From a virus, in IMG/VR virus record IMGVR_UViG_3300046010_000744, positions 1-28,870 of that record: a stretch of DNA of 28,870 bases; one strand, given 5' to 3'. Every line of letters begins with the position of its first letter. The stretch's first letter is position 1. Positions 1,701 to 3,228 of the stretch are shown here, piece by piece. The notes beneath the pieces were generated by a model that did not search any database, was not told where the DNA came from, and worked only from the letters and a program-made list of their open reading frames with translations. Position numbers and translations under genes: made by a program.

Positions 1701-1980
1701 CAGATGATTCTTTCTCCAGTCATGTAATACATTCAGACTACTCTATCCCCAAGGGGTGGAAGCCGAAGCTTTTGCCCTGCCCGGAGGGCCACTCAAGGGG
1801 CCAACCCAGCAAACCCAGGGGGCAGCGATTCATTCACCAGGAGTCTTGTCCCACCACTTCCCTCCTGGCTACTCCAGTCCCTCGCTGACAGGCTGGAACC
1901 TAAACGGGGGGTGTAACCGCTAGGTGTCTTTTTGAGGATCTGCCGATTCAAGCAATTACTACGCGCCTCGGGCGGTCAGA

Positions 1981-2076
1981 GAAAAGAAAAAGCCCCATTA
2001 CGGCTGGGTTCCAGGTTCCGACGGAAGTGAGCTGCAAGGAAGCTCTCGACAACCGAAACCCATGCGTAATAGGGCT
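1981..2076 (-). ncRNA. Candidate structured RNA ending in a U-rich tail
   Basis: Arms at 1991-2013 and 2054-2076 pair over about 19 of 23 positions (for example AGCCCCATTACG with CGTAATAGGGCT). Read on the minus strand, the loop holds two small hairpins: GAGCT with AGCTC, and TTCC with GGAA around GTC. That gives a three-way-junction shape. The 3' arm is followed directly by TTTTTCTTTTC, as in an intrinsic terminator, while the plus strand has no T-tract after the repeat. This could be a small phage RNA, the terminated end of a longer leader, or simply an elaborate terminator. No known RNA family was recognised. Confidence 0.4.
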
Positions 2077-2089
2077 GGTCCTTGCTGTA

Positions 2090-2132
2090 TCACCCTTCCG
2101 AGGTGGCCTGATCTTTTTCTCAGACAAGGTGA
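2090..2132. repeat. Two-part imperfect hairpin
   Basis: On the plus strand, TCACCCTT near 2090 can pair with AAGGTGA near 2126-2132 with one bulge. Inside this, CTGA pairs with TCAG around a T-rich loop. It forms part of the chain of hairpins in the non-coding region. The stem is short, and no function can be assigned from sequence alone. Confidence 0.35.
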
Positions 2133-2167
2133 AGACTATCACAGTCCAATAAAGTTCCGCAAGGGGT

Positions 2168-2381: not shown

Positions 2382-2596
2382 TTAACTGTCAACAAAATAG
2401 GGGCGCCCTCCTGGTCGATCTTCCAAGTCCTGTCCCCGGCCTTCAGGTAAATATCCGGGATGCAGGTGCAGTCCCGCTTATCAAAGACCCCGCAGTCATC
2501 GTCATGGCCGACCTCGACCTGCACCACCTCCCCGGCGGTGCTTTGGTATTTCTGTAGCTCAGCCACACCCTTGGCCAGCCTATCCTGATAGTTCAT
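2378..2596 (-). CDS. Small Cys-containing protein of unknown function
   Basis: 72 residues. The N-terminal part is helical (LAKGVAELQKYQ) and the middle holds GHDDDCGVFDKRDCTC, a cluster of one His and three Cys that could bind a metal. No family was recognised with certainty. It is the last gene of the leftward early operon: its ATG overlaps the stop of the 211-residue gene by four bases, its stop lies in a hairpin, and the terminator follows about 90 bases further on. It is probably a small accessory protein. The reading frame is supported by the tight coupling to its neighbour and the absence of any better frame. Confidence 0.65.
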   Translation of the reverse strand: MNYQDRLAKGVAELQKYQSTAGEVVQVEVGHDDDCGVFDKRDCTCIPDIYLKAGDRTWKIDQEGAPILLTVN

Positions 2597-3228
2597 TCTC
2601 CCCTCCCATCGTAATCAAAAGTCTCAGTATCTCCCAGGCGCCACTTGGCAAACTGCTCGACCCGGTATTTCTTGGTAGCCACCCTGAAGTCCGGCTTCTT
2701 CATAACATCTGGATTAAAGGCTGGGTCAAAGAACCGGCAGCGGTTATTCGGCTGGAGGGCAAACTGGCCATTGTCCAGCTTCAAAAGGTTGTAGCTCTTA
2801 TGCTCATCAATGGTCTCAGACAGGGTGAAGTCTGGAATCCTGGGATCTGGATTACAGGTATCCAGGGTAAACATGTACTCACCCTCATGGGTCTGACGGT
2901 CCTTGCCAAAGAACTCAGCCCGTAGCCCCTTAAGGAGCGGCTTCTCCACGACGGTAACGTAGTAGCTCAGGGCATCCCAGATCTGTAGGACGTCGAGCGG
3001 CAGCTCATCATGGATCGGTGCCCAGCAAAAGGCGTGGATCGGCAGCTTGTCGTATAAAGCGCCAGACTCAGGAAGGTAGGTCTCAAACCTAAAAGCCTCG
3101 CCGCGGATAGCCTTGACGCTAACCCATATTCCTTTGACCAGAGGAGTATCGAATGGACAAGTAAAGTCGTACAGATACTCAGGCCGAACCCAGACTTTGA
3201 CCGGGGGCAGCGGGCATACAAAGTTCAT
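2593..3228 (-). CDS. Conserved-type phage protein of unknown function
   Basis: 211 residues, soluble, with no signal peptide or membrane segment. It is rich in aromatic residues and Pro (PLPPVKVWVRPEYLYDF, HAFCWAPIHDELPLDVLQIWDALSYYVTV) and has a basic C-terminal third (KKYRVEQFAKWRLGDTE). No catalytic motif is recognisable. Start and stop overlap both neighbours by four bases (ATGA), which supports the boundaries and translational coupling. Its position between a YbcO-like nuclease and a small Cys protein suggests an accessory role in early phage functions, but no activity is claimed. Confidence 0.75.
   Translation of the reverse strand: MNFVCPLPPVKVWVRPEYLYDFTCPFDTPLVKGIWVSVKAIRGEAFRFETYLPESGALYDKLPIHAFCWAPIHDELPLDVLQIWDALSYYVTVVEKPLLKGLRAEFFGKDRQTHEGEYMFTLDTCNPDPRIPDFTLSETIDEHKSYNLLKLDNGQFALQPNNRCRFFDPAFNPDVMKKPDFRVATKKYRVEQFAKWRLGDTETFDYDGRGE

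Follow-up and report, generated by a model that had tools for sequence, protein, structure and literature searches.

A structured RNA common to dozens of uncultured bacteriophages and absent from the Rfam catalogue

As far as we know, few small RNAs of phages have an elaborate tertiary structure. GOLLD and ROOL are associated with phages and are several times longer than the RNA discussed here. The ToxI and AbiF RNAs, antitoxins of type III systems, function alongside a toxin gene; in the case of ToxI, the RNA is produced as tandem repeats. The account in PMC12373285 presents AbiF and ToxIN as systems that use small RNAs, with a role in phage-host conflict, and ToxI as pseudoknotted; GOLLD and ROOL are introduced as structured RNAs in PMC12286853. 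The RNA that we call type A1 lies in a virus record of 28,870 bases, analysed over its full length (the window). It is common to dozens of uncultured bacteriophages and absent from the Rfam catalogue. A1 resembles GOLLD and ROOL in being structured, and the type III antitoxin RNAs in being small and, as far as ToxI is concerned, pseudoknotted. The window gave no match at the gathering threshold of Rfam 15 and hence none that would assign the RNA to the GOLLD or ROOL type, while a permissive search of positions 1960-2145 up to E 10 returned chance-like matches only. No description of the A1 RNA was found in titles and abstract openings of the literature; one survey of 224 candidate structured RNAs may list the motif.

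It is extremely unlikely that A1 is the antitoxin or guide RNA of a known RNA-protein system, whether type III toxin-antitoxin, AbiF or TnpB/IscB-like. The idea draws on the occurrence of a pseudoknotted RNA in phages and on the precedent of AbiF and ToxIN, which employ small RNAs (PMC12373285). However, unlike ToxI and the AbiF RNA, A1 was seen neither with the toxin gene, Abi_2 being found in none of 24 records (some of them fragments), nor as tandem repeats, the region 1700-2400 of the window holding no array of ToxIN-like units. A constant protein neighbour was not seen either. The 25 PHROG families listed, of 119, for 74 proteins encoded beside A1 include no TnpB/IscB-like nuclease gene.

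Among catalogued RNAs, RF02932 (Betaproteobacteria-1) is, like A1, structured and of similar size, and at some loci it adjoins the A1 3' end. It differs from A1 in that the two have no sequence or model match (the matches of RF02932 lie beside A1) and in that it occurs without A1 in Acidovorax phage AP1 and in L121; in both of these, R1, a covariance model built from 32 A1 copies, finds nothing up to E 10.

The first-pass annotation had drawn attention to a minus-strand stem with a U-rich 3' end at 1981-2076, and this stem is borne out: AGCCCUAUUACG (2076-2065) pairs with CGUAAUGGGGCU (2002-1991), and the U-rich UUUUUCUUUUC (1991-1981) follows directly 3'. The proposed comparison with shuffled sequence also favours it, as the minus strand of 1970-2080 folds with a minimum free energy (MFE) of -44.4 kcal/mol against a mean of -29.8 for 200 dinucleotide shuffles, none of which is as good (z -4.2). 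The 560-nt region folded whole is unexceptional (z -1.27). Energy by itself cannot choose the strand, because 1981-2076 is just as stable when read on the plus strand (z -4.29). The strand predicted to be transcribed is the minus one, chosen by the U-run, the promoter-like elements and the G-U pairs in the alignment, the G-U cells at several pairs becoming A-C mismatches if read on the other strand. What did not survive is the three-way junction enclosing two short hairpins, which is ruled out by the predicted fold together with covariation. Both the MFE and the centroid structure of 1970-2080 are a single long hairpin broken by internal loops, and the conserved fold consists of a terminator hairpin, two covarying pseudoknots and two 5' hairpins. 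The conserved structure encloses one hairpin (P3), and its two pseudoknots use bases 5' of the start originally reported.

The interval 1981-2076 does contain the 3' part of the RNA but misses its first ~50 bases, the full RNA running from ~2125 to 1981 (Table 1). L042, the closest relative outside the window's own contig, resembles the window over 2128-1980 and no further, so that the unit must be larger than first reported and its start must lie upstream. The spacing of the promoter places the 5' end near 2125, and R1, of which the window is one of the seeds, matches it at 1987-2125 with 104.4 bits (E 5e-27).

Table 1. Positions of the predicted A1 RNA, its parts and its flanking elements in the window
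Feature	Position	Strand	Basis or remark
-35-like element TTGCGG	2157..2162	-	putative promoter of A1 RNA
-10-like element GATAGT	2135..2140	-	weak copy; 16-base spacer from the -35 element; first base at -15 instead of -12
Type A1 RNA	1981..2125	-	~140-145 nt, first hairpin to end of U-run; R1 match and relatives
P0, 5' hairpin UCUGA(GAAAAAGA)UCAGG	2107..2124	-	helix 1: 97.3% paired; two-sided changes at 3/4 pairs
Pa, second hairpin CACC..GGUG	2091..2105	-	helix 2: 2 pairs modelled, 96.1% paired
Pa loop CGGAAG, one half of PK2	2095-2100	-	partner-swap test
PK2, other half, CUUCCG	2022..2027	-	partner-swap test, 0/5000 permutations
PK1, 5' half, GCAAGGA	2079..2085	-	partner-swap test, mean 8.8 bp in 38 RNAs, 0/5000
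PK1, 3' half, UCCUUGC in apical loop	2034..2040	-	partner-swap test
P1, 5' arm AGCCCUAUUACG, terminator stem	2065..2076	-	helix 3: 100% paired; two-sided changes at 8/10 pairs
P1, 3' arm CGUAAUGGGGCU	1991..2002	-	helix 3 covariation
P2, 5' arm GGGUUU	2056..2061	-	helix 4; partner GAACCC (2011-2006) across CAU/AGC internal loop
P2' CGGU, partner GUCG (2022-2019)	2052..2055	-	helix 5: 100% paired; C-G to U-A in 6/38
P3 hairpin GAGC...GCUC, bears PK1 loop	2029..2045	-	helix 6: 91.2% paired; two-sided changes at 3/3 modelled pairs
U-rich tail UUUUUCUUUUC	1981..1991	-	at least 4 U in a row no more than 25 nt beyond the core, 38/38 copies
Block B, conserved noncoding neighbour outside the RNA	1746..1956	-	also in L003, L050, L051, L052 (A2-carrying contigs)

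Comparison of the copies shows a body in which compensatory change maintains six nested helices and two pseudoknots. The model was used to align 38 distinct copies, and the alignment is therefore fitted to the structure. Its 29 nested pairs comprise 1097 cells, of which 98.3% are paired, and 16 of the 29 pairs show two-sided changes, counts that come from related sequences and are not independent events. None of 500 shuffles reaches any of five measures, and sliding the helix partners lowers pairing to 32-51%. (L093, a near-duplicate of L057, was left out of these counts.) With a plain MAFFT alignment of 32 copies the outcome is alike: 96.0% paired, two-sided changes at 14 pairs and again none of 500 shuffles as high. 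The proposed stem thus holds up in homologues, P1 being kept with compensatory changes. The copies were gathered with patterns that fix the core, and the invariance of inner P1 and of P2, in which five of six pairs do not vary, is partly built in by patterns that required those pairs.

The pseudoknots were tested for each sequence separately, own against swapped partners, without recourse to alignment columns. PK1 joins the strand before P1 to the apical loop (GCAAGGA/UCCUUGC in the window), with a range of 5-15 bp among the copies, while PK2 joins the Pa loop to the strand after P3 (mean 6.9 bp, range 4-9; CGGAAG/CUUCCG). For both, own partners outscore swapped ones in the mean, a result reached by none of 5000 permutations in either case. 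As related copies share partners, a copy's own partner stands alone at the top in only 19 of 38 copies for PK1 and in only 5 of 38 for PK2. By column, PK2 is 68.8% paired and poorly aligned, a slide of -1 scoring higher on several measures, and its support therefore comes from the per-sequence test. A third long-range pairing, PKx (CAGG with a 3' CCUG), is weakly supported and is not claimed.

The comparison extends upstream. Counted from base 1 and averaged over the 38 copies, similarity to TATAAT is highest at -12 (3.89/6) and similarity to TTGACA at -35 (3.39/6), values elsewhere being 0.8-2.7. TTG is present at -37 to -33 in all 38, and at least four of the six TATAAT bases fall at exactly -12 in 29; in 2000 mononucleotide shuffles the corresponding maxima were 12 and 10, and none reached the observed counts. 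This argues for a sigma-70-like promoter at a fixed distance from the A1 5' end, of which the window's own copy, TTGCGG-16-GATAGT, is a weak match. With such a promoter and with a U-run in 38 of 38 copies, it is very probable that the RNA extends from the first hairpin to the U-run. The G+C-rich stem followed by a run of U is that of a predicted intrinsic terminator, and the original suggestion of a small RNA that stops at a terminator of its own has good support from the fixed-distance promoter, the covarying terminator stem and the loci where neighbouring ORFs lie on the opposite strand. A strong stem and a U-run would also befit an elaborate terminator that does nothing but insulate transcription units, its 5' half being incidental. 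This reading is already disfavoured and very unlikely: conservation extends beyond stem and U-run to the 5' half and the pseudoknots, the unit has its own promoter at a fixed distance, and covarying pairs lock the 5' half to the terminator loop.

As to coding, the three forward frames are free of stops in 3, 11 and 1 of the 38 copies, and copy lengths, 136-152, fall into all three classes modulo 3. An 86-aa mechanical ORF over the RNA (1948-2208, TTG start) was rejected as coding, its frame not being kept in the 38 copies.

Relatives of A1 were gathered with successively different patterns. An exact 16-base pattern matched eight IMG/VR stretches, four of them real (a contig identical to the window here, L042, L046 and L047); L043, L045, L048 and L049 were discarded by eye as chance. 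A two-part core pattern matched 48 stretches in viral_contigs, corresponding to 35 distinct sequences with the layout present by eye, and eight in genome_contigs, none of which has the layout or the U-run by eye. With the six new stretches among the 41 matched by a looser pattern, A1 is found in 54 viral stretches. Variants include a change from G-C to U-A at the P1 pair beside the internal loop (L116-L118) and from AGC to AGU in that loop (L115, L119, L120). Applied to 100 sources, R1 matches 48 on the expected strand (E <= 3.1e-20) and gives nothing better than E 0.088 in the other 52; its weaker reverse-strand echoes at the same places as the true matches were disregarded. A whole-record search with R1 gave matches in 6 of 27 records, all of them carriers already known. 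Among 16 records chosen, from 34 loci, for a relative of the ferredoxin-like gene, plus L003, only that of L010, which lies in the same contig as L042, has A1.

Outside IMG/VR, five blastn queries representing A1 or the window, and thus few copies, found no homologue in isolated phages and plasmids, the rows returned being pieces of 21-27 bases. R1 found nothing in 399 genomes from the order of the Limnohabitans genome G028, Burkholderiales, nor in a further four genomes, empty results that are uninformative in the absence of a positive control. MW202545 likewise gave no R1 match, nor did the portion of Caulobacter phage GB2A that was scanned. In the collections searched, A1 was seen only in IMG/VR contigs.

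At the same place, a second RNA can be present. L003 is 97.8% identical to the window upstream of A1 and 92.5% downstream, the RNA in between being replaced. The replacement, type A2 (3319-3445 in L003), also occurs in L050 and L052, with matching promoter-like upstream sequence and the same layout of 5' hairpin, strand-to-apical-loop pairing and terminator; CTTGCGGAACTT...GGACTgTGATAGTCT is kept upstream of A2 in all three. L051 ends before the slot, and L141, another piece of its contig, has the RNA core of L003. A pattern for A2 matched 69 viral stretches, and 51 distinct sequences were analysed. Over all 51 copies the analogue of PK1 passed the swap test (0 of 5000 permutations), and for the analogue of PKx own partners were no better than swapped ones (3580 of 5000 reach the score). 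The -10 peak lies likewise at -12 (4.06/6), and the -35 peak is weaker, at -34/-33 (2.68). In 44 of the 49 extracted copies, L148, L164, L177, L182 and L183 having been omitted without a stated criterion, 30 nested pairs are 97.8% paired and 12 show two-sided changes. None of 500 shuffles does as well on four measures; the fifth, further pair types, is reached by 219 of 500. Of the omitted copies, L148 formed a PK1 helix of just 5 bp in the swap test and L177 one of just 6 bp.

R1 has no match up to E 10 on L003, L050 and L052, so that A1 and A2 share no more than layout and slot. The exact A2 core occurs in none of 19 A1 records (the window and 18 others), and none of seven A2 loci scanned has an Rfam match at gathering on the RNA. 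Since either A1 or A2 may occupy the one slot, the pair would lend itself to a natural complementation experiment. In L003 and L050, a 76-aa ORF starting MPIVYSRKYLPMNGRFYCVTNQEQ is found between A2 and block B.

What might such an RNA do? With a probability of a little under 0.6, we favour the view that A1 is a phage gene in its own right whose product is a highly structured small RNA acting in trans, likely a shape that binds protein. The anatomy of a gene, with a putative promoter, a knotted body and a terminator within the fold, emerges from the comparison of copies. Independence is indicated by the single place per record in the six records matched by R1 and by variable gene neighbours. 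We think that A1 acts in trans and that it probably binds protein; RNAs so constrained usually do something specific with protein. A1 would be transcribed early and would fold during transcription, the 5' hairpins forming first and the terminator hairpin then. The upstream strand would capture the apical loop and the 3' inner strand of the terminator hairpin, and the folded RNA would bind a protein as a shape, either as a scaffold or as a decoy for a host or defence factor, and act neither as a riboswitch nor by antisense pairing. ProQ, considered as the partner protein, was found in none of 24 records.

A regulatory sRNA working by base pairing would instead bind phage or host mRNAs through a short exposed segment, either the A-rich P0 loop or the bases that follow CGGU, and its terminator and knots would only stabilise it. 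An own promoter, a terminator and a U-tail are typical of such sRNAs, and 31 of 38 copies have AAAA in the P0 loop region, among their first 18 nt. Nevertheless we regard this as unlikely, and judge a protein-binding shape preferable, because most conserved bases are paired, in helices or pseudoknots, and the variable segments pair within the RNA itself; inspection by eye turned up no long conserved single-stranded seed. Moreover, the sequence of PK1 drifts yet stays paired, which makes a target-reading guide role unlikely. PK1 lends itself to a ready compensatory-mutation test, and A1 is compact (~140 nt) with a clear promoter and terminator in most copies. If the RNA is a decoy or scaffold, it would open a way to study host control by the phages of uncultured bacteria.

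The surroundings of A1 bear on another possibility, that of a regulated attenuator or riboswitch-like leader that governs whether transcription continues into the structured block B and on to the genes beyond. Taking as neighbours mechanical ORFs of at least 70 aa that overlap the RNA by 60 nt or less, the gap from A1 to the next ORF is 170-525 nt in 26 of 35 loci, a point in favour of a leader. In addition, RF02932 starts 7-11 nt after the R1 3' end in 6 of 31 A1 loci scanned (L046, L072, L080, L084, L085 and L092), leaving no room for a promoter between the two. Yet attenuation is quite improbable. A conserved antiterminator was not found, pairing from upstream to the two P1 arms being no better than shuffled (10.9 vs 11.9; 10.6 vs 10.7) where true P1 scores 25.5; the lack of an upstream competitor for the P1 arms speaks against an attenuator. 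Nor was a constant, co-directional downstream gene seen, since downstream ORFs differ and can be on the other strand. Of the nearest ORFs, the upstream one is opposite in strand to A1 at 12 of 37 loci and the downstream one at 11 of 35; at L068, L070 and L080 both are. L061 and L076 have a 260-aa ORF right behind the U-run and no block B, and in L003 and L050 an ORF separates A2 from that block.

RF02932 is also found 20 nt behind A2 in two of seven loci scanned (L137, L144). A blastn query spanning A2 and RF02932 matched one phage record, on the RF02932 part, and no plasmid. Among 150 genomes from the order of G028, RF02932 occurs in one, where A1 does not accompany it. In phage AP1 it lies 34 nt behind the primase gene, in an unannotated place before the next CDS (L192:2919-3042).

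Beyond the preferred reading of A1 as an independent gene, we tentatively raise the possibility, itself rather doubtful, that the 54 A1 stretches and the 69 A2 stretches represent two lineages of one phage RNA machine. Its marks would be the shared -10 distance, the 5' hairpin, the strand-to-apical-loop pseudoknot and the built-in terminator, the two lineages being exchangeable in one slot that is followed in some loci by RF02932. It would be a dedicated and widespread RNA used on a host or defence factor by phages of uncultured, probably proteobacterial, hosts, unseen because the phage isolates searched did not reveal it. That the A1 phages have proteobacterial hosts is likely from their terminase relatives: for the L042 and L085 contigs, the nearest terminase is that of an uncultured Manatee Spring phage (66% and 69%, respectively), followed by those of Caulobacter phages (44% and 42%). 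The most numerous matches of these terminases are to Microbacterium phage records.

In the window the stem sits in a 677-base minus-strand stretch, overlapped by mechanical ORFs of 66-86 aa, between a 72-aa ORF (2378-2596) and a phosphoadenosine phosphosulfate reductase-like gene (915-1700). The latter and a gene annotated 'ferredoxin' (2593-3228), both PHROG auxiliary genes, flank the region. Across the A1 loci, among 74 neighbour proteins scanned of 167, eight match an Erf-like annealing family and four each match methyltransferase, primase and replication-initiation families.

Block B precedes the reductase gene. Judged by eye, L058 and L066 have something similar to it, and at other A1 loci its place is taken by different structured-looking blocks. 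Upstream of A1, a small-RNA-like unit is discernible at 2392-2256 of the minus strand, where TTGACA-17-TATAAC overlaps the end of the ORF 2378-2596. These elements are followed by ~100 nt that contain a CCUCCU stretch as well as a simple terminator (AACCCCCGG/CCGGGGGTT-T), and the unit is kept in L003 and L052. This upstream unit, and not A1, bears at 2254-2336 a weak likeness to RF02837 anti-hemB (23.9 bits, E 0.0029, gathering threshold 49.5). Between it and A1, the minus strand at 2168-2228 contains a long stem, GGAGGGGG-UAACAACA...UGUUGU-CCCCCCUCC, which is also present in L003 and L052.
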